Shown here piece by piece: positions 1-6,778 of a stretch of 13,356 nt of DNA; positions within the stretch are counted from its first letter, which is position 1, and each line of letters starts with the position of its first letter. This stretch comes from Selenomonas sp. GTDB taxonomy: Bacteria > Bacillota_C > Negativicutes > Selenomonadales > Selenomonadaceae. The translations under genes and the position numbers were made by a program. The notes beneath the pieces are model-generated. The model was not told the origin of the DNA and searched no databases. It was given only the letters and a program-made list of their open reading frames with translations. The stretch is taken from NCBI RefSeq assembly GCF_024699275.1, contig NZ_JAILPX010000058.1, forward strand, positions 1 through 13,356, written 5' to 3'.

Positions 1-807
1 CTGGCCACAACCAAAGGCGTCCTGTCCGGCGCCCTCAATTATGCCATCTATCCAGCAGAGCTGATTGTCGCTAATCCGGTGCTGGCCATAAGAATTCCCA
101 GGTCAGCTCCTCGCAAGGTGACAAAGCGCACCATCATCACGCCGGATCAGCTTGCTGACATACTCAAAAATTACCCTGTGGGCCATAAATACCGTGTACC
201 GATATTACTTGCCTATTACACAGGCATGCGGGCAGGGGAAATACTGGGGCTTGAATGGGGCGACATCGACCTTGATAATCGGACGATATGTGTCCGGCAC
301 CAAATTCAAAAAGACGACCTGTCACAATTATTCTACGCTGAGACACCAAAGACGGAATCCAGTCACCGCGATTTTTACATCGACAGCCAGATGGCCAGTG
401 AACTAAAGAAATGGAAAACCACCCAAGGTGCCAATCGAATGAAGCGCGGTGAAGCATACCAGCTTGTCTACGCAGGCAGTGACAGTTTCCTGTTTTCCCT
501 GCCTGTTTCAGAGAACTGCCCTGCCGGGGCTACGCACAAAGATTTGGTGTGCACCGATAAGACTGGCTTATTTATCAAGTACCCGTCATTCGCGCTAATG
601 CTTCGCAAGCTCGGCCTGAACTCTCACAGCTTCCGCCATACTCACACCACGGAGCTGGCAGAACATGGAGCCCTGCCGATTGACATAGCCGCCCGCCTGG
701 GACATCACGACGCCACGATGGTCAATAAGCTCTATGCCCATGATACCGAAGCCATGAAACAGGCCACCGTCCAAATCATTGAAAGTCGCATCGTTCACAA
801 ACAGTAA
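1..807 (+). CDS. Tyrosine recombinase / phage-type integrase, 5'-truncated by window edge
   Basis: The reading frame is open from the first base, so the window holds only the last 268 residues; the true start lies to the left. The first ~30 residues look like the end of the SAM-like core-binding domain (helical, ending in an ANP-type turn). The catalytic domain follows. Visible active-site residues are the first Arg in TGMRAGEI (codon 229-231), the HSFR box (His codon 625-627, Arg 634-636), the GHH motif near 700-708 and the nucleophilic Tyr in KLYAHD (codon 733-735). All are intact, so the enzyme should be able to cut and rejoin DNA by the 3'-phosphotyrosine mechanism. A GTG at 79 could be mistaken for a start, but coding clearly extends upstream. 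Its type resembles integrases of conjugative elements and prophages rather than XerC/XerD. The rest of any element would lie to the left, with this gene at its right end. Confidence 0.93.
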   Translation: MATTKGVLSGALNYAIYPAELIVANPVLAIRIPRSAPRKVTKRTIITPDQLADILKNYPVGHKYRVPILLAYYTGMRAGEILGLEWGDIDLDNRTICVRHQIQKDDLSQLFYAETPKTESSHRDFYIDSQMASELKKWKTTQGANRMKRGEAYQLVYAGSDSFLFSLPVSENCPAGATHKDLVCTDKTGLFIKYPSFALMLRKLGLNSHSFRHTHTTELAEHGALPIDIAARLGHHDATMVNKLYAHDTEAMKQATVQIIESRIVHKQ

Positions 808-1095: not shown

Positions 1096-2346
1096 ATGAA
1101 TATTTCCAACACGGCCTTGAGTAAAATCGTTGCCCTTACGCTTATCGGCACAGTATTGACCGTCTTGGTTGCCGGCAGCATTTCCGTAACCGTCAGCAAC
1201 AAGAACAGGATTGTCATGGGCGTACAAGCCCATGGAATCCCCATTGCTGGCATGAGCAAAAGTGACGCACACAAATTCTTCACCGAGCTTGCCGCCAGCA
1301 AATTACGGCGTAAGGCCGCCGTACTCAGTTATAAAGAACGCATCTTCCAAATTGACCCTGCAGACATCAACCTGCATGGTAATGTGGATGAGGCTGTGGA
1401 AGCGGCCTATCGCATTGGCCGTCAGGGAACGCCTGCAGAAAACCTCATCAGTCAAATGTGGTGCGCCATCTTCGGCAAAAACGTCACCATGGACGCCAGT
1501 TTCGATGAGCAACTGCTGAACAGCCAGCTGCAGCAAATAAAAGCCGCCATTGATACCCCCCCCATAAATGGTACCGTTATCCTGCAGGCCGATGGTAGCA
1601 TCAAAAAGACGCCTGCTGTCACAGGCCTAAGCTTAGATATTACCCCTCTGGCCGAGGAAATGACCCCTGATTTCAAAACCTTCAACATAACCGTAAAAAA
1701 AGAGCTGATTCCCACCGAACAGCCGCCCTTCATTCAAAATAATGATTTGGCCGCCATTGATGGTATTTTAGGCTCCTATACCACCAGTTTTTATCCCGGT
1801 GATCGTGGGGATAATATCGGCCTGGCGGCCAGCCACTTGCAGGGTGCGTTAGTCCGCAGCGGTTCCACATTATCCTTCAACTCCGTGGTGGGTCCCCGCA
1901 CCCATGCTGCAGGATACAAAAATGCTGGTGTCATCGTCTATGGCGAACATGCCATTGATGTGGGCGGTGGGGTTTGTCAGGTAAGTTCCACCCTCTACAA
2001 TGCCATACTCCTGGCCGGTCTTACCCCAGTGGAACGCACCGGACATTTCGCTTCTTCTTCCTATGTGCCTGCCGGACGGGATGCCACCGTAGCAGACGGA
2101 CTGATTGACTTCGTCTTCCGCAATCCCCTGCCTCATCCTGTCTACCTGACCATTGGCAACAGTGGCAGCACCCTGACGATTTATGTACTGGGCACCAAAG
2201 CGGATTTGGGAGGCAAAAGCATTTCCCTAATCACCGAAGGCAGTACCATGCATCCTTCCCTCTACCGCCTATGGCTGCAGAACGGTCAGGTCATCGAAAA
2301 GGAATTTCTCCATACCGATGCCTATGAAACCTTAAAGCATACATAA
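1096..2346 (+). CDS. VanW-family membrane-anchored cell-wall protein
   Basis: The protein has 416 residues from ATG 1096, which follows AAGGAG at 1079-1084. An in-frame GTG at 1084 overlaps that ribosome binding site and is less likely to be the start. An N-terminal hydrophobic segment (about residues 8-30) acts as a signal anchor. The middle (~80-195) looks like the putative peptidoglycan-binding domain often paired with VanW. The VanW domain proper covers about 226-355, with recognisable strings such as STLSFNSVVGPRT, GGGVCQVSSTLYNA and GRDATVADGLIDF. VanW proteins occur in some vancomycin-resistance clusters and widely in Bacillota; their biochemical role is not established. No vanS/vanR/vanH/vanA-type genes are present here, so resistance should not be inferred. 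It probably acts outside the membrane on or near peptidoglycan. It converges with the GntP permease gene across a shared hairpin terminator. Confidence 0.9.
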   Translation: MNISNTALSKIVALTLIGTVLTVLVAGSISVTVSNKNRIVMGVQAHGIPIAGMSKSDAHKFFTELAASKLRRKAAVLSYKERIFQIDPADINLHGNVDEAVEAAYRIGRQGTPAENLISQMWCAIFGKNVTMDASFDEQLLNSQLQQIKAAIDTPPINGTVILQADGSIKKTPAVTGLSLDITPLAEEMTPDFKTFNITVKKELIPTEQPPFIQNNDLAAIDGILGSYTTSFYPGDRGDNIGLAASHLQGALVRSGSTLSFNSVVGPRTHAAGYKNAGVIVYGEHAIDVGGGVCQVSSTLYNAILLAGLTPVERTGHFASSSYVPAGRDATVADGLIDFVFRNPLPHPVYLTIGNSGSTLTIYVLGTKADLGGKSISLITEGSTMHPSLYRLWLQNGQVIEKEFLHTDAYETLKHT

Positions 2347-2353
2347 TCGATAA

Positions 2354-2399
2354 AAAGCGTCCGGCAGAATCATTTTATCGTGATTCTACCGGACGCTTT
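2354..2399 (-). terminator. Strong hairpin terminator between convergent genes
   Basis: An 11-bp stem (2354-2364 with 2389-2399), one mismatch, and seven further pairs (2366-2372 with 2381-2387) close an eight-base loop. On the minus strand the stem is followed by a T-rich run (TTTTTA), serving the GntP gene. On the plus strand it sits 7 bases after the VanW stop and runs into TTTCT, so it probably works in both directions. Confidence 0.88.
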
Positions 2400-2421
2400 C
2401 TGATACGGTAAAAATATATAT

Positions 2422-3840
2422 TCAACAGATTCCCGTCAGCATATAGAACAATATGCACAGGAACGGTACGACGAACTTCATCCCCATAATCATGGCAATA
2501 TCAAAATAGGATTCCTTATGGGATAGACCACAGATTGCCAATAAGGTAACCAGCGCACCGCAGTGAGGAACCGGGTCAATGCCCACCGAAGCCACAGCCA
2601 CGATACGATGCAGGACCTCCAGGGGAATCCCCGCAGCCATGGCCATGGCTGCCCACTGATCGCCCAAAGCCGACAATGCGATGGTCAGACCACCAGAGGC
2701 CGAACCGGTAATACCACACATGATGTTGGTGGTAATAACTGCCGACAACAGCGGACCAAAAGTCGCCGCTATGCCAACCAGCCATTCCGTCACCGGGGCA
2801 AATCCCGGCATAGCTGTAATGACACAGCCAAAAGCATAACCGGAAGCAACGTTAAGCGCTGCAGAACCGGAAGACAGGGCTGCATAGTTAACGGTAGGCA
2901 GGATACCCTCCGCAACCTTTAGGCGATGCCGGCCGATATAGGCAGCCACAATACTGCTGAGAATCAACGCTACACTGATGGACCAGATGGCCGATACCTT
3001 ACCCACATGCGAGGCCAGCAGGGTCAGCTTCAAAGGCACGAAGGCCGCCAAACTTTCCTCATTCCAGTGAAAGCCCCATTCCCAGGCAAAGGGATTGGAC
3101 AAAATCACATTAATCACGATTACCATCAGCAAAGGAATCATCGCCAAATACCAGGGAATAGTCATTTTAGGATGACGTTTCTTCTGCCCATCACCGCCAT
3201 GCTCACCATAACCCTCTCCACGGGATTGCAAAAGCTTCGCCCGATGACCAATCCAGCCCCAGCCAATCAACAGAAATAACAACGATGCAAATAACCCGAT
3301 TCCAGGCGCTGCCCAGGTACTTGTCTGAAAATATGAGGACGGAATAATATTCTGAATTTGTGGCGTGCCAGGCAACGAAACCATGGCGAAGGAAAAAATC
3401 CCCACCCACAGGGCCGCCGGCAGAAGTCTTTTCGGTATATCGGCCTTCTTGAACACCACCGCACCAAAGGGATACATGACAAAGGCCACCACGAACACAG
3501 ACAATCCCCCGTAGGTCAAAGCACCACACCCCATCAACACCGCCAGAATGGCGCGCTTTTCCCCCAGCACGTCCACAATCTTGCCGGCAATAGACGAGGC
3601 CAGGCCGCCTTTTTCCATCAGCTTGGCAAATACTGCACCGAAAAGAAATACCGGATAATAGGTCTTCACATACTCGGCCAGCCTCGTCATATACAGCTCA
3701 CTATACACCGGCAGGATATCGAACATACTGGCCAGTGCCGCCAATCCCGCAAAAAAAGGTGCAATCAGGATGATTGACCAACCGCGATAGGCAAAATACA
3801 TAAGTCCCAAAAGTGCTAACCCAATACAAAGTGCTTCCAT
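2422..3840 (-). CDS. GntP-family permease (organic acid / gluconate-type symporter)
   Basis: This is a highly hydrophobic protein of 472 residues from ATG at 3840, with roughly 12 or more membrane segments. A GAGGGGAG ribosome binding site (3853-3860) lies 12 bases before that ATG. In-frame TTG codons upstream (the first at 3882) would add up to 14 residues. The C-terminal part contains the segment HRIVAVASVGIDPVPHCGAL, very like the conserved motif of the GntP family (gluconate:H+ symporter family), and a glycine/serine-rich GSASGGL segment. Family members import gluconate, related sugar acids, hydroxybutyrate or other small carboxylates with a cation; the substrate here cannot be read from sequence. 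The leader holds a cobalamin riboswitch and two terminators. No catabolic enzyme gene lies next to it, so context does not identify the substrate. The gene ends 23 bases before the shared terminator. Confidence 0.85.
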   Translation of the reverse strand: MEALCIGLALLGLMYFAYRGWSIILIAPFFAGLAALASMFDILPVYSELYMTRLAEYVKTYYPVFLFGAVFAKLMEKGGLASSIAGKIVDVLGEKRAILAVLMGCGALTYGGLSVFVVAFVMYPFGAVVFKKADIPKRLLPAALWVGIFSFAMVSLPGTPQIQNIIPSSYFQTSTWAAPGIGLFASLLFLLIGWGWIGHRAKLLQSRGEGYGEHGGDGQKKRHPKMTIPWYLAMIPLLMVIVINVILSNPFAWEWGFHWNEESLAAFVPLKLTLLASHVGKVSAIWSISVALILSSIVAAYIGRHRLKVAEGILPTVNYAALSSGSAALNVASGYAFGCVITAMPGFAPVTEWLVGIAATFGPLLSAVITTNIMCGITGSASGGLTIALSALGDQWAAMAMAAGIPLEVLHRIVAVASVGIDPVPHCGALVTLLAICGLSHKESYFDIAMIMGMKFVVPFLCILFYMLTGIC

Positions 3841-3935
3841 GGTGTCCAAAGACTCCCCTCGTAGAAATTTTACTATCCACAATCCCCGATAGTCTTGGGA
3901 ACATCGTCCCCTATGTAAATGGAAAGAAAAAAATA

Positions 3936-3959
3936 AGCTCCGATATCGCTATCGGAGCT
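3936..3959 (-). terminator. Second intrinsic terminator in the GntP leader
   Basis: On the minus strand a perfect 9-bp stem AGCTCCGAT/ATCGGAGCT with a six-base loop is followed by TATTTTTTTC, a textbook intrinsic terminator. It lies about 95 bases upstream of the GntP start codon and ~105 bases beyond the first terminator. No gene lies between the two. Confidence 0.88.
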
Positions 3960-4019
3960 GCTGCAAGACGCAGACAATCCATAGAACTGAATGAAATGTA
4001 TGAGCATTTCTTCCTGTCA

Positions 4020-4048
4020 GTCGAAACCAACAGGAAAAACCTTTCGAC
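4020..4048 (-). repeat. Small inverted repeat between the two leader terminators
   Basis: GTCGAAA at one end and TTTCGAC at the other form a 7-bp stem around a 15-base loop in the leader RNA. An overlapping CCTGT/ACAGG pairing is also possible. It may be an extra folded element of the leader; no known motif is recognised. Confidence 0.4.
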
Positions 4049-4064
4049 AAAATAGGCAAAATAA

Positions 4065-4091
4065 AAGCTCCTCCCGCGTAGGGAAGAGCTT
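4065..4091 (-). terminator. First intrinsic terminator, riboswitch expression platform
   Basis: The minus-strand RNA forms an 11-bp stem AAGCTCTTCCC/GGGAGGAGCTT (one G-U pair) with loop TACGC, followed by TTTATTTTG. It lies about 80 bases downstream of the riboswitch aptamer. The 5' arm contains CTTCCCTA (4086 to 4079), which is exactly complementary to TAGGGAAG in the aptamer core (4325 to 4318). That pairing offers a possible antiterminator. Confidence 0.88.
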
Positions 4092-4171
4092 ATTACGCTA
4101 CTCGAAAATACCCACACTAACCCAGGCTCTAAAAACTTTTCAGTACCGATAAATCTCCATCCCTATCACTC

Positions 4172-4343
4172 GCAGGTCAAACGGCGATTGTTAATCAGGC
4201 AGTTCTCCTGGCTCCAGTTCAACATTTATCTGCGCCTTCCCAAAGGAAACCTCCAGTGACGTAACTATGCAGATAAACTCCCTGTTACAGTGGCGGGACC
4301 GCGCCGGCTTATACCGGCTTCCCTATTAAGTCTAAGACACCTG
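4172..4343 (-). promoter_or_regulatory. Cobalamin (B12) riboswitch
   Basis: On the minus strand the conserved blocks of the cobalamin aptamer appear in order: TTAATAGGGAAGCCGG (near 4328-4313), GCGGTCCCGCCACTGTAA (4302-4285), GTCACTGG (about 4261-4254), GGGAAGGCG (about 4242-4234) and the B12-box AGCCAGGAGAACTGCC (4213-4198), which differs from the usual box at one position. A short closing pairing CAGG/CCTG brackets it. In this RNA family bound adenosyl- or other cobalamins turn the downstream gene off. The next gene in the direction of transcription is the GntP permease, ~330 bases downstream past two terminators. Aptamer identity is very likely; control of the permease is inferred from position. 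Confidence 0.95.
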
Positions 4344-4383
4344 ACCCAACCCATATTCTATTGGTCTTTCTTTTACAGTATGT

Positions 4384-4412
4384 ATATTAGCATAAATTTT
4401 CTTTATTGTCAA
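4384..4412 (-). promoter_or_regulatory. Promoter of the cobalamin riboswitch leader
   Basis: A perfect -35 TTGACA (4412-4407), a 17-base spacer and -10 TAATAT (4389-4384) preceded by TGC (extended -10) lie about 40 bases upstream of the aptamer. This is one of the best-matching promoters in the window and gives the riboswitch RNA its own transcription start near 4377. Confidence 0.85.
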
Positions 4413-4441
4413 CGCAATAAATAACTTTTATAAACAGATAA

Positions 4442-4463
4442 GGCAGTCCCCTAAGGAACTGCC
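4442..4463 (-). terminator. Terminator of the infC-rpmI-rplT operon
   Basis: A 9-bp stem GGCAGTTCC/GGGACTGCC (one G-U pair) with a four-base loop lies 27 bases after the rplT stop. The following TTATCTGTTTATAAAA is only moderately T-rich, so termination may be incomplete. Confidence 0.7.
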
Positions 4464-4489
4464 CTAAATTTCACGCTATATACCCCAAA

Positions 4490-4843
4490 TTAGAGGTTTT
4501 CTTTTGCAACAGCAACGAGCTGAGCGAAAGCTTTCTCGTCGGAGATGGCGAGATCTGCCAGCATCTTGCGGTTTACTTCAACGCCAGCCTTGGTCAGACC
4601 ACAAACAAGACGGCTGTAGGAAATGCCGTTGATGCGGGCAGCTGCGTTGATACGAGCAATCCAAAGACGACGGAAGTTGCCCTTCTTTGCACGACGGTCA
4701 CGGCGTGCATAGTAGAGAGCCTTCATTACGGTCTCATTAGCTTTCTTAAACTGTTTGCTCTTGGAACCCTTGTAACCCTTAGCGAGCTTCAGGATTTTCT
4801 TATGACGTCTATGTGCAGTCACGCCTACTTTTACTCTTGGCAT
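4490..4843 (-). CDS. rplT: 50S ribosomal protein L20 (bL20)
   Basis: The protein has 117 residues, the usual length for bL20. It begins [16 protein letters not shown] and carries the family signature [17 protein letters not shown] and the [20 protein letters not shown] block. The basic N-terminal half threads into 23S rRNA during early 50S assembly; the C-terminal globular half binds RNA and in characterised bacteria also binds its own mRNA leader to repress the infC-rpmI-rplT operon. It is the last gene of that operon here, 48 bases after rpmI, with an AGGAGG ribosome binding site ahead of the ATG at 4843. A leader that could carry this autoregulation is visible before infC. Confidence 0.99.
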
Positions 4844-4891
4844 GGTTTCATCCTCCTAAAAATTCAAGTTAACGATAAAAATTCGCGAAAA

Positions 4892-5092
4892 TTATGCGTA
4901 AGGAAGCATTCTCTTTACGCGGCCGAAATCAGCAGCCGTAACCATAGCGGCTTTGCGCAGATTACGTTTGCGCTTCGGAGACTTCTTCTCCAGAATATGG
5001 CTCTTGAAAGCCTTGTTACGTTTGAAATTTTCACCGCTACCAGTCATGGTAAAGCGTTTAGCAGCTGCTCTGCGAGTCTTAATCTTTGGCAT
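4892..5092 (-). CDS. rpmI: 50S ribosomal protein L35 (bL35)
   Basis: This is a 66-residue, very basic protein of normal bL35 length. It begins [14 protein letters not shown] and includes [18 protein letters not shown] and a lysine/arginine-rich [12 protein letters not shown] stretch. It is a small structural protein of the large ribosomal subunit. AAGGAGG stands 9-10 bases before the ATG at 5092. It lies between infC (34 bases upstream) and rplT in the conserved order infC-rpmI-rplT and should share their leader-mediated regulation. Confidence 0.99.
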
Positions 5093-5126
5093 TACATTTT
5101 CCTCCTTAAATTAGCCTGGGAGTCTC

Positions 5127-5678
5127 TTAGGATTCCTGTGCAGGCTGTTTGGACTTCGATGCTTTCTGCGTCTTAGGCGCAACGATCATCGTCATATTTT
5201 TTCCTTCAAGTTTGGCATTGCGTTCAATGGAAACACGGTCACCAAGGGCTTCTGCCACACGGCCCAGGACCTCTTTGCCCAGTTCCGGATGGGAAAGCTC
5301 ACGGCCACGGAACATGATGGTCACTTTGACCTTGTTCCCTTCCTCTACGAAACGAAGTGCATTCTTTAACTTGACGTCAAAATCATGCTGTTCAATATTG
5401 GGACGAAGTTTCACTTCCTTAATATTGATGACCTTCTGCTTCTTCTTCGCTTCCTTTTCCCGCTTCTGCTGTTCGTAGCGGTACTTACCGAAGTCCATGA
5501 TCCGGCAGACCGGCGGTTTGGCCTTGGGGGCGATCTCCACCAGGTCAAGATGCTGTTCTTCCGCCATGCGCAATGCGTCACGGGTTGCCATGATCCCCAG
5601 CTGCTCACCTTCAGCGCTGGTCACACGCACTTCACGAATGCGAATTTCCTCATTGATGCGTAAGGATTCTCTGCTAAT
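5127..5678 (-). CDS. infC: Translation initiation factor IF-3 with an AUU start codon
   Basis: The product is a 183-residue IF3 if it starts at ATT 5678. The N-terminal domain begins SRESLRINEEIRIREVRVTS and includes LGIMATRDAL and the PPVCRIMDFGKYRYEQQKR region. A lysine-rich linker (~75-95) leads to the C-terminal 30S-binding domain with VKLRPNIEQHDFDVKLKNA and VTIMFRGRE. IF3 binds the 30S subunit, blocks premature 50S joining and checks the start codon. No ATG or GTG exists at the right place: the first in-frame GTG (5630) would cut off the conserved N-terminus. AGGAGGTG at 5693-5686 lies directly ahead of two ATT codons at 5681-5679 and 5678-5676; spacing favours the second. A rare AUU start is the known autoregulatory device of infC, since IF3 itself rejects such starts. 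Confidence 0.96.
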   Translation of the reverse strand: MSRESLRINEEIRIREVRVTSAEGEQLGIMATRDALRMAEEQHLDLVEIAPKAKPPVCRIMDFGKYRYEQQKREKEAKKKQKVINIKEVKLRPNIEQHDFDVKLKNALRFVEEGNKVKVTIMFRGRELSHPELGKEVLGRVAEALGDRVSIERNAKLEGKNMTMIVAPKTQKASKSKQPAQES

Positions 5679-5681
5679 AAT

Positions 5682-5835
5682 AAAACACCTCCTGCTTAAA
5701 GTCTACATCTTCTCCAAAACAAGAAAGAGGCGGCAATTCAGCCACCTCAATAAAACTCATGCTATAAACCCAACTGACTCTTACCATTCATCAGCAGGTG
5801 AGAAGCGGTGGCTTCTTCTTGTTCACGACTTTGAT
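5682..5835 (-). promoter_or_regulatory. infC operon attenuator leader (L20-leader type)
   Basis: The ~150-base untranslated leader between the promoter and infC can form two exclusive structures. One is a terminator hairpin at 5727-5748. The other pairs AGCCACC (5813-5807) with GGTGGCT (5746-5740), which takes up the 5' arm of that terminator. A small hairpin GAAGC-CACC-GCTTC also forms around 5804-5817. In Bacillus the same operon is controlled by L20 binding to a leader that ends in such an attenuator. Assignment to that family rests on position and architecture, not on a covariance search. Confidence 0.75.
5727..5748 (-). terminator. Attenuator terminator in the infC leader
   Basis: The minus strand reads GAGGTGGC, six-base loop, GCCGCCTC (8 bp with one G-U pair), followed by TTTCTTGTTTT. 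It stands ~50 bases before the infC start and would stop transcription of the operon unless the upstream AGCCACC segment captures its 5' arm. Confidence 0.82.
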
Positions 5836-5864
5836 AGTTTAACATAAAACGCAGACACTGTCAA
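5836..5864 (-). promoter_or_regulatory. Promoter of infC-rpmI-rplT
   Basis: The -35 TTGACA (5864-5859), a 17-base spacer and -10 TAAACT (5841-5836) preceded by TGT (extended -10) form a convincing housekeeping promoter. It lies ~60 bases after the aroE stop; no terminator is evident between, so some readthrough from aroE is possible. Confidence 0.83.
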
Positions 5865-5926
5865 ATATTTTTTCACGATCTCTGACTCAGTAGTACCATT
5901 ATGTAAAAGCACCCTAATAAGTCCAT

Positions 5927-6778
5927 TCAAGCAAGCAACGCCCGACGCAAGGCTTTTCTCATACAATCCAGGTTCACCTTGCAGCCTGTCCACAACGCCA
6001 AAGCTGCAGCCCCTTGCCCAGCCAGCATTTCCTCACCATTTACCGTCTTATGTCCATGCGCCTTTGCTTCCTTCAAAAAGCAAGTCTCTGCCGGCGTATA
6101 GATAATATCATATACAAAAGCATCTGCCCTGACCTTTGACCAGTCAACAGGTGGGCATTCCTCCACCTTAGGCGTCATCCCCAATGGTGTTGTATTCACC
6201 AGAAGGGCACAATCATGCAGCTTTTGGAAAAAATCCTCATCTTCCCAATGACGAATGGTTACTTTGCCGTAGGCAGAAAATTCTTTTGTCAGCGATTGCA
6301 CTTTAACAGGATTGCGCACGCCTAGCACCACTTCTGACACACCAGCTTTCAGCAGACCCCAGATAACCGCCCTAGCAGCACCACCAGCTCCCAGCAGCAC
6401 CGCCAGTTTATTGGACAGATCAATATTGCGGGCCGTCAAAGCCCCCATAAAGCCCAGATAATCCGTATTGTAACCCGTCAGCTTGCCGGAATCGTTGACC
6501 ACGGCATTGACTGCACCAATAATCCTGGCTGCTTCGTCGATTCCATCCAACAGAGGCATGATGGCCGTCTTATGGGGAATGGTCACATTCCAGCCCCGGT
6601 AATTCAAGGCTTTAAGACCGGCTACCGCCGCTGGTAAATCCTCCGGCTTCACCGGCAAGGCTGTATAGTTATAATCCATGCCGGCGTTTGCAATAGCAGC
6701 ATTTTGCAACACCGGCGAAAGAGAGTGACCAATGGGCCAGCCAATAACCCCCAAGTTCTGCGTTTTTCCGGTAATCAT
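5927..6778 (-). CDS. aroE: Shikimate 5-dehydrogenase
   Basis: The enzyme has 283 residues, normal length for AroE. It reduces 3-dehydroshikimate to shikimate with NADPH in the cytoplasmic chorismate pathway. The substrate-binding domain shows GWPIGHSLSP (Ser19, Ser21), NVTIPHK with the catalytic Lys70, and TGYNTD with Asp106. The nucleotide-binding Rossmann domain has GAGGAAR at about 130-136. The end contains VNGEEMLAGQGAAALALWTG, typical of the family. ATG at 6778 is preferred over the in-frame TTG at 6781 because AGGAG lies 8 bases before it. Its start overlaps the stop of pncB by one base (TGATG), so the two are translationally coupled. No other aromatic-pathway gene lies nearby, so pairing with NAD salvage is unusual but may only reflect shared expression. 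Confidence 0.97.
   Translation of the reverse strand: MITGKTQNLGVIGWPIGHSLSPVLQNAAIANAGMDYNYTALPVKPEDLPAAVAGLKALNYRGWNVTIPHKTAIMPLLDGIDEAARIIGAVNAVVNDSGKLTGYNTDYLGFMGALTARNIDLSNKLAVLLGAGGAARAVIWGLLKAGVSEVVLGVRNPVKVQSLTKEFSAYGKVTIRHWEDEDFFQKLHDCALLVNTTPLGMTPKVEECPPVDWSKVRADAFVYDIIYTPAETCFLKEAKAHGHKTVNGEEMLAGQGAAALALWTGCKVNLDCMRKALRRALLA

Follow-up and report, generated by a model that had tools for sequence, protein, structure and literature searches.

What does the cobalamin (B12) riboswitch carried on the minus strand of a 13,356-nucleotide (nt) stretch of Selenomonas sp. DNA (contig NZ_JAILPX010000058.1, called the window below) control? In a preliminary description of this DNA, the adjoining gene, taken for a GntP-family permease, was proposed as its object. 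Comparison of the locus with its relatives points instead to a short conserved RNA lying between two terminators, T1 and T2, which is the part of the locus that the preliminary description had not named. The aptamer, the conservation of this RNA and its association with the riboswitch, the predicted accessibility of its 18-nt segment GCUCAUACAUUUCAUUCA (the proposed pairing seed), and the sites complementary to that seed in the leaders of cobalamin-synthesis (cbi) genes were all computed directly. We propose that the locus encodes a small regulatory RNA that is gated by a repressing cobalamin riboswitch and pairs with cobalamin-synthesis mRNAs, and we put the probability of this full mechanism at about 0.64.

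All coordinates given here are window positions. The riboswitch, the conserved RNA, and the permease all lie on the minus strand, where a promoter-like sequence is followed by the cobalamin aptamer, T1, the conserved RNA, T2, and the open reading frame (ORF) of the permease. The aptamer matches the RF00174 covariance model over its whole length (positions 1–189 of 189, E = 1.1e-23) and far above the gathering score of 31.5, which places it in that family; RF00174 was also the only family matched in an Rfam scan of positions 3830–4440 at E values up to 5. Thus, the aptamer, the promoter-like sequence in front of it, and the two terminators with the permease next on the strand are all as the preliminary description had them. 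The calls of T1 and T2 rest on conservation in relatives rather than on the terminator scan, since the excess of terminator-like sites over shuffled sequences is small (8 versus 4.3 in positions 1500–6000, both strands).

The association of the riboswitch with the permease was assessed in 61 permease-related loci, 55 from Selenomonadaceae and six from Moraxella, Filifactor, Peptoniphilus, and Bacillus, of which 57 (L001–L056 and L060) were scanned with cmscan and the others (L057–L059 and L061) by a motif script alone. In 26 of 54 Selenomonadaceae loci cmscan finds RF00174 immediately before the permease and, since the neighborhoods of the pair otherwise differ among the ten loci read, the pairing is beyond chance. 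The arrangement that the preliminary description had proposed to look for in related genomes is therefore conserved in these 26 and absent in the remaining 28 orthologues (one of which, L031, has just 214 bases upstream), which argues against the permease as the only output. In all 26 loci the conserved RNA sits between the riboswitch and the permease, also in genomes of the Anaerovibrio type, which share the same core. It was recognized by a word search with at most two mismatches in 24 of them and by the covariance model in L018 (G015:C42) and L044 (G039:C76), and the word GCTCATACA is present in every one (L044 read separately). Behind the core, a strict script recognizes a terminator-like hairpin and T-run in 24 of the 26, with imperfect hairpins seen by eye in L035 and L037.

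The same cassette also occurs away from the permease. Across the family survey of 189 genomes, the 18-mer with at most one mismatch was found at 62 places in 56 genomes (55 without a chance match in G080), compared to one genome of 189 for the reversed word; 58 of these places are the conserved RNA. When 32 genomes were searched with up to two mismatches, a perfect copy was present once each in 17 of them, located before the permease in the Selenomonas ruminantium and Anaerovibrio types, and behind a riboswitch of mutAB where the permease has no riboswitch (for example, in G006 and G009). Cobalamin-aptamer motifs lie just upstream in 43 of the 46 loci read around the 18-mer, the other three being an antisense site (L185), the chance match in G080 (L191), and a second copy of the element in G174 (L216). 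Of 20 of these 46 loci scanned with cmscan, 18 have RF00174 upstream, with none at L216 or L191; leaving aside the chance match, this amounts to 18 of 19 element loci, with the second copy in G174 as the exception. At E ≤ 1e-3, the covariance model of the RNA (R1) has matches in 97 of the 189 genomes, these E values being rough, and all 20 weaker matches picked for inspection have RF00174 within ~400 nt upstream, one of the aptamers being cut by a contig edge.

The genes that follow the cassette are varied, including the permease, mutAB, serS (serine–tRNA ligase), cbiK, and short unnamed ORFs (cbiK, cbiL, cbiF, mutA, mutB, and serS were identified with Pfam and NCBIfam), and at L217 the nearest gene downstream is a phage-type integrase located on the opposite strand and convergent. 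Because the RNA is present in all 26 permease loci and the same cassette precedes other genes, we consider the RNA to be the conserved output. The riboswitch is most consistently tied to it and not to the permease, the stable unit being the B12 riboswitch together with a small RNA, and the permease a conserved yet optional, mostly changeable neighbor.

According to the preliminary description, the riboswitch would be an ordinary cis regulator of the permease, and the RNA between the terminators would merely be its leader. This view draws on the recurrence of the pair in 26 of 54 orthologues with differing neighborhoods, as well as on the finding that none of the 12 window-type loci (L018 counted) has a promoter of the pattern TTGAC(A/T)-15..19-T(A/T)(T/A)(A/T/G)A(T/A) between the seed and the gene; a plain consensus scan of the window-type loci gave one weak match, of 9 of 12 positions, in L005. 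On the other side stand a leader core that is nearly invariant and recurs behind riboswitches before unrelated genes, the presence of two terminators in series, and a promoter-like sequence that follows T2, 79–149 nt before the permease, in 15 of 15 Anaerovibrio-type loci, so that as a full account this view is unlikely. The separate permease promoter that the preliminary description had named as contrary to its proposal thus has a counterpart in the Anaerovibrio type and none of that pattern in the window type. Among 27 riboswitch-less permease loci, an exact TTGACA at a spacing of 17 is found near the gene in 23, and some match of at least 9 of 12 in 26. What remains of the proposed control is that read-through is plausible in the window type, because no such promoter follows the seed there, and judging from these sequences permease expression may depend on read-through of both T1 and T2; with the RNA intervening in every locus and the Anaerovibrio-type permeases having promoter-like sequences of their own, permease control would amount to no more than a second output, confined to one clade. 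The permease mRNA was also considered as a target of the small RNA and was rejected, the mean z of pairing being 0.11 over 18 of the 28 riboswitch-less permease 5' untranslated regions (UTRs). Several riboswitch-less permease leaders (L008, L009, L011, L012, L014, L016, L017, and L020) carry, as seen by eye, a GC-rich hairpin resembling GCAGTCGGC..GCCGGCTGC about 100–200 nt before the gene, which, located between promoter and permease, is possibly a separate attenuator.

The conserved RNA consists of a hairpin (H1), the accessible segment GCUCAUACAUUUCAUUCA, a small hairpin (H2), and the terminator T2; it is thus a conserved noncoding RNA with its own terminator, lying beyond that of the riboswitch, as expected of a small RNA. 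In 11 aligned window-type leaders the arms of H1 covary and are followed by GCTCATACATTTCATTCAGTTCTATGGATT, identical in all 11, then by H2, which varies, and T2. When 42 copies are aligned (A1), the lower helix of H1 is paired in 96.7% of the cells; over the whole structure, 21 cells are changed on both sides, compared to a mean of 8.8 in shuffled alignments, with none of 500 shuffles reaching 21. Counted by pairs, the two-sided changes are not significant (5 versus 3.5, a value reached by 80 of 500 shuffles), and the structure slid by +1 column still has 18 two-sided cells, but with only 74.8% paired. The RNAalifold energy of A1 is weak (−0.23 kcal/mol), and the lengths of the loops vary. 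In 55 of the 56 copies folded, the 18-mer is less paired than the remaining RNA (unpaired on average 0.65 versus 0.36). The loop of T2 reads AGGTGGAGCT, or nearly so, in ten Anaerovibrio-type loci with varying stems (L032, L035–L037, L041, L042, L044, L048, L049, and L052) and is possibly a second functional site.

Since the conserved stretch could also be read as codons, ATG/TTG-CTC-ATA-CAT-TTC-ATT (MLIHFI..), a leader peptide with a purine-rich ribosome-binding site (RBS) was considered. Many copies do contain, by eye, a possible start codon and a sequence similar to GGGGAG/AGGA at a fitting distance. The frame is, however, broken by indels of one base in L018 and L473, two bases in L469–L472 and L044, and five bases in L036, L041, and L048, and the base changes of these codons in A1 are not synonymous, as would be expected of constraint at the level of RNA. 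Such a peptide is scarcely credible.

Table 1. Features of the riboswitch–RNA–permease locus, in window positions.
Feature	Position	Strand	Basis
Promoter-like sequence TTGACA-17-TAATAT, with TG before the −10	4384–4412	−	Sequence scan; found in 10/10 aligned leaders reaching that far (11 aligned)
Cobalamin riboswitch aptamer, RF00174; L5 TCCCG at 4298–4294	4181–4359	−	Covariance model, 97.2 bits
Candidate P13/L13 hairpin; L13 GGGA at 4163–4160 complementary to L5 UCCC (kissing loop)	4143–4169	−	Sequence; architecture by analogy with the part seen of PMC10653944
T1, intrinsic terminator of the riboswitch	4065–4091	−	Terminator scan, leader alignment, folding
Conserved RNA element, model R1	3980–4058	−	Covariance model, 80.3 bits (the window copy belongs to the 42 copies used to build R1); alignment A1
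Hairpin H1 of the conserved RNA, with compensatory changes among relatives	4011–4036	−	Alignment, shuffles, folds
Proposed pairing seed GCUCAUACAUUUCAUUCA, 18 nt, nearly invariant, mostly unpaired in predicted folds	3988–4005	−	Word searches, folds
Small variable hairpin H2 (ends approximate)	3960–3975	−	Leader alignment, folds
T2, terminator, proposed 3' end of the small RNA	3936–3959	−	Terminator scan, conservation in relatives
GntP/CitMHS-superfamily permease, start TTG 3849 or ATG 3840	2422–3849	−	ORF, homologue search, Pfam

The seed has complementary sites in the leaders of cobalamin-synthesis genes. Four of the 62 places of the 18-mer are not the element, and apart from the chance match these are antisense sites in 5' UTRs: in cbiL of G041 (18 of 18 positions complementary) and of its near-identical sister G021 (17 of 18), and in cbiK of G047 (17 of 18, just after a TATAAT). 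Pairing of the seed was then scored against 300 shuffled seeds in 30 genomes, of which 29 provided cbiL and 26 provided cbiK (G044 has no cbiL orthologue, and G026, G040, G042, and G043 have only distant cbiK-like matches). Strong sites were found in 4 of 29 cbiL loci with z from −5.5 to −9.2 (G041, −30.6, z −9.2; G021, −26.2; G023, −23.7; G174, −22.3, z −5.8), the remaining 25 scoring −9.0 to −15.0 with z no lower than −1.8, and in 5 of 26 cbiK loci (G047, −24.1, z −6.0; G023, −19.5; G041 and G021, both −18.6; G044, −17.1, z −3.4). All strong cbiK sites fall in the 12 loci that have no riboswitch motif within 450 nt (5 of 12), with none among the 14 that have one (Mann–Whitney p = 0.008).

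For cbiF, 15 stretches with cbi genes were scanned with 20 shuffled seeds each. The cbiF leader is the strongest site of its stretch in four of them (G041, −22.8; G021, −23.0; G044, −23.0; G024, −22.2 kcal/mol), in which the minima of the shuffled seeds average about −15, with the lowest of 20 between −17.3 and −20.5. The site is located 42–43 nt before the start in G041, G021, and G044, and at the corresponding place in G024, where the flanks have diverged and the changes relative to the other genomes keep the pairing. The best site in the other 11 stretches is −13.6 to −20.2. An accessible conserved seed and complementary sites in functionally linked mRNAs are thus found together, as expected of a base-pairing RNA, so far outside the clade of the window. 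A further possible target is the seed complement (−25.2 kcal/mol) of L370 (G025:C3, ~1834), upstream of a gene resembling, by eye, a helix-turn-helix regulator.

Other matches near cbi genes were set aside. Duplexes near the start of cbiD (−22.9 in L277 and L278, −20.8 in L262) are the best of their sets. Unrelated genes of the other stretches reach −18 to −28, however, and in the 40-nt scan covering the same operon (L477) the value there was only −15, so that cbiD was not counted. The TGAATGAAGTGCATGAG matches in the vicinity of cbi operons fall within a coding sequence, presumably rsmB-like. Several of the sites of the 12-mer AATGTATGAGCA that are additional to the element copies are inside unrelated ORFs, and since its reversed control (1 site in 46 genomes) is not composition-matched, the ratio was not used as evidence. 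A 17-mer search with two mismatches allowed proved too unspecific and does not enter the counts given here.

The antisense sites also bear on two other explanations. Were the element and T2 a second cis attenuator, or an unknown riboswitch in series with the first, forming a two-input gate on the following gene, the terminator that the strict script finds after the element in most permease loci would be accounted for, and tandem riboswitch arrangements are known in general. The genes downstream are, however, unrelated (permease, mutAB, serS, cbiK), the nearest one in L217 is the convergent integrase, promoter-like sequences follow T2 for the Anaerovibrio-type permeases and for serS in L216 (TTGGAC-18-TATAAT, by eye), and the sites in the cbi leaders would be left unexplained; we regard such a gate as quite improbable. 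A decoy of the EutX/Rli55 type, acting by titration of an antiterminator protein that binds RNA and not by pairing with mRNA, would have a similar layout of B12 aptamer, terminator, and structured RNA, as far as that system is described in the part seen of PMC5821096. In the RNA analyzed here, the most conserved part is single-stranded sequence rather than paired hairpins, and matching antisense sites exist in cbi leaders, which makes a decoy very improbable.

Several observations weigh against the proposed pairing with cbi mRNAs, or limit its reach. The strong sites occur in few lineages, about four independent ones for cbiK (G041/G021, G044, G023, and G047) and three each for cbiL and cbiF, G041 and G021 being near-identical. 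The cbiL sites do not track the absence of a riboswitch over all loci (p = 0.40), and two scanned cbi stretches (L484, −20.2; L486, −19.7) slightly pass the lowest shuffled minimum outside the leaders of interest. The copies in G023 and G024 (L045 and L046) have no H1 and are missed by model R1. Furthermore, the grouping of cbiK loci depends on the 450-nt rule: in G021, G023, and G024, counted as riboswitch-less, cbiK does have a riboswitch ~3.3 kb upstream, which in G021 and G023 heads an operon led by btuF, with cbiK coming after that operon; in G137, G138, G149, G155, and G157 the riboswitch–RNA cassette itself lies further upstream; and only in G047 is cbiK clearly far from any riboswitch (the nearest at ~6.3 kb). 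As a consequence, the RNA would often add to, and not replace, control at the level of the operon, and our confidence in the full mechanism is slightly lower.

In the clade of the window itself (S. ruminantium), no cbi target was found, which also counts against the proposal. Pairing at the start site of metH, scored in 29 genomes, reaches −20.5 in G164 and G002 only (z −4.7 and −4.6), followed by G047 (−16.2, z −4.0) and G001 (−16.7, z −3.4), so that z is −4 or lower in 3 of 29. The nuoF start sites of five S. ruminantium-type genomes share the 12-mer; this match may be due to chance, as AUGAGC is complementary to the GCUCAU within the seed, and the same may hold for the strong metH matches, which likewise overlap AUGAGC start codons. 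Together with genes that resemble, by eye, an old yellow enzyme and a HAD protein, metH and nuoF were therefore rejected as start-codon targets, being too little conserved and subject to the AUGAGC bias, and are kept as weak leads only.

The direction of the switch was considered from the predicted structure of the leader. Pairing is possible between the 5' arm of T1 and L13 extended by its 3' flank, a layout that resembles the repressing metE riboswitch of Priestia megaterium (PMC10653944, seen in part). In the one activating case given in that part of the same report, P13 overlaps the terminator, whereas in the window P13 and T1 share no sequence. When the L13 GGGA is forced to be unpaired, the predicted probability of T1 rises in 5 of 11 leaders (window, 0.68 to 0.98; L001, 0.55 to 0.98; L002, 0.29 to 0.98; L007, 0.72 to 0.98; and, trivially, L005, 0.96 to 0.98), stays the same in six (0.98), and falls in none. 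The equilibrium fold of those six leaders thus has no switching, another point against the proposal. An activating switch, as might be suggested by the need of MutAB for B12, was rejected since P13 and T1 share no sequence, folding never favored it, and the mutA riboswitch of Veillonella parvula represses in a reporter (PMC9600662, seen in part). We infer from these folds that the switch is probably of the OFF type, so that the full RNA should be made when B12 is low.

Cobalamin riboswitches are located before mutA–mutB in many Selenomonadaceae (L092, L099, L103, L106, L111, L115, L119, L121, L122, L126, and L129; the family search for these genes covered L103 and L099 only). A repressing switch on a B12-dependent methylmalonyl-CoA mutase is a puzzle, and a riboswitch on mutA has also been reported for V. 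parvula.

From transcription itself to pairing in vivo, activation, and any effect on the permease, the proposed sequence of events would be as follows. RNA synthesis would start at the promoter-like sequence in front of the aptamer. With a corrinoid bound, L13 would be held by L5, T1 would form, and RNA polymerase would stop; with corrinoids scarce, L13 and its flank would pair with the 5' arm of T1, allowing transcription through H1 and the seed and ending mainly at T2. In Anaerovibrio-type genomes the released RNA would pair through GCUCAUACAUUUCAUUCA with the 5' UTRs of cbiK, cbiL, and cbiF mRNAs. Because cbi genes should be on at low B12, the RNA would be an activator, so that pairing would probably raise cbi expression and one B12 sensor would reach genes lacking their own riboswitch. 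For the S. ruminantium type, to which the window belongs, permease mRNA may additionally come from read-through of T2 at low B12. Of all these steps, the sign of regulation is the least certain. In cbiK of G047 the site forms half of a stem over the RBS and the start codon, and blocking it raises the predicted accessibility of the RBS from 0.10 to 0.67; for the other seven leaders folded, such a release is not predicted, with little change upon binding, which again counts against activation. We can speculate further that these RNAs form a Selenomonadaceae-wide family, a trans arm of the B12 regulon, which is encoded in cassettes at varied loci (permease, mutAB, serS, cbiK), reaches cbiK, cbiL, and cbiF without their own riboswitches, and activates corrin-ring synthesis at low B12, opening a masked RBS in at least one case; for this broader picture we consider the chances to be even.

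Tandem or extra copies of the RNA exist in some genomes, such as G149, G155, G157, G171, and G172. In L192, L193, L196–L202, L213, L214, and L475 there are tandem or second copies, some sharing one riboswitch and some each having its own. In G174 two copies of the region are 14.8 kb apart (L395, G174:C8:1867000-1885500, with L216 and L217); the upstream one keeps the riboswitch and is followed by the convergent phage-type integrase, whereas the other has no riboswitch match and precedes serS. The two copies have the appearance of an integrative element having made use of the small-RNA locus or duplicated it. Antisense ORFs next to the element in L194 and L222, the latter located upstream of a cbiK-like start, were not taken as evidence of stand-alone genes.

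The permease of the window has no match to PF02447 (GntP) in Pfam at E ≤ 10, and its match to CitMHS scores 9.3 bits. Nine of 15 aligned relatives match GntP (the best at 1.1e-13) and 13 of 15 match CitMHS, at E ≤ 1, and several are named GntP family permease by NCBI. The assignment in the preliminary description thus applies to the family by way of the relatives and not to the protein itself, which by sequence appears to be at most a divergent member of the GntP superfamily. Its ORF ends at 2422, and the in-frame TTG at 3849 is nearer to a Shine–Dalgarno-like sequence than the ATG at 3840. The closest named relatives are from S. ruminantium and related Selenomonas, several with 93–96% protein identity. 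More distant ones (L054–L059, ~40–44% identity) adjoin genes resembling short-chain dehydrogenases, CoA-transferases, and thiolases (two identified by Pfam, the rest by eye), which suggests a permease for short hydroxy acids, with substrates of the 3-hydroxybutyrate/acetoacetate type. A substrate tied to B12-dependent succinate/propionate metabolism was rejected, as nothing connects the permease to the riboswitch-bearing mutAB. In the Anaerovibrio-type loci L032, L036, L041, L048, and L049, cbiK, which has a riboswitch of its own, and/or exbB-exbD-tonB-like genes (the latter by eye) come after the permease. Elsewhere in the window, on the plus strand, a VanW-domain protein with a putative peptidoglycan-binding domain (1096–2346) is convergent with the permease, and a tyrosine recombinase (79–807) has its ORF start near the window edge.

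Corrinoid riboswitches are known mainly as cis regulators, and of the B12-gated noncoding RNAs in the sources seen in part, EutX/Rli55 acts by capture of a protein (PMC5821096) and AspocR as an antisense to pocR (PMC8079631). A B12-gated RNA pairing in trans with the mRNAs of B12 synthesis would, if confirmed, explain how one sensor extends to genes that have no riboswitch. The setting is a rumen family in which propionate formation depends on the cobalamin-dependent methylmalonyl-CoA mutase; mutAB was identified here in Selenomonadaceae, and B12 dependence of propionate formation is reported for Xylanibacter in the part seen of PMC11575231. Annotation of a riboswitch by the gene that adjoins it can also mislead, as that gene is perhaps not the main output.

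No description of this small RNA was found in the open-licence PMC literature, judged by titles and abstract openings. We regard it as a previously undescribed small RNA, a variant among riboswitch-controlled noncoding RNAs such as EutX/Rli55 and AspocR. The comparisons that follow are limited to the portions available of the sources cited. In EutX of Enterococcus faecalis and Rli55 of Listeria, an adenosylcobalamin aptamer and then a terminator precede a functional noncoding RNA that is produced in the absence of the ligand (PMC5821096), the same order as in the window; those RNAs sequester the protein EutV and act on ethanolamine genes, whereas the RNA described here has a single-stranded seed with sites in cobalamin-synthesis leaders. 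In AspocR/Rli39 of Listeria, a B12 riboswitch likewise controls a noncoding RNA with mRNA as its presumed object (PMC8079631); that RNA is 1.4 kb long and antisense to pocR, in contrast to the short RNA of the window with predicted targets elsewhere in the genome. The S-adenosylmethionine riboswitch RNAs SreA and SreB of Listeria pair in trans with the distal part of a 5' UTR (PMC8079631), as is predicted here, although SreA is the terminated riboswitch itself, made in the presence of its ligand, whereas the RNA of the window lies beyond the terminator and should be made in its absence. Finally, the riboswitches of V. parvula mutA and P. megaterium metE share with the window a cobalamin aptamer and, as predicted for the window, a terminator-based repressing platform and the L5–L13 kissing loop (PMC9600662, PMC10653944); in the accessible parts of these reports they appear as cis regulators of a downstream reporter with no small RNA described, whereas the locus of the window places a conserved RNA with its own terminator behind the same kind of switch.

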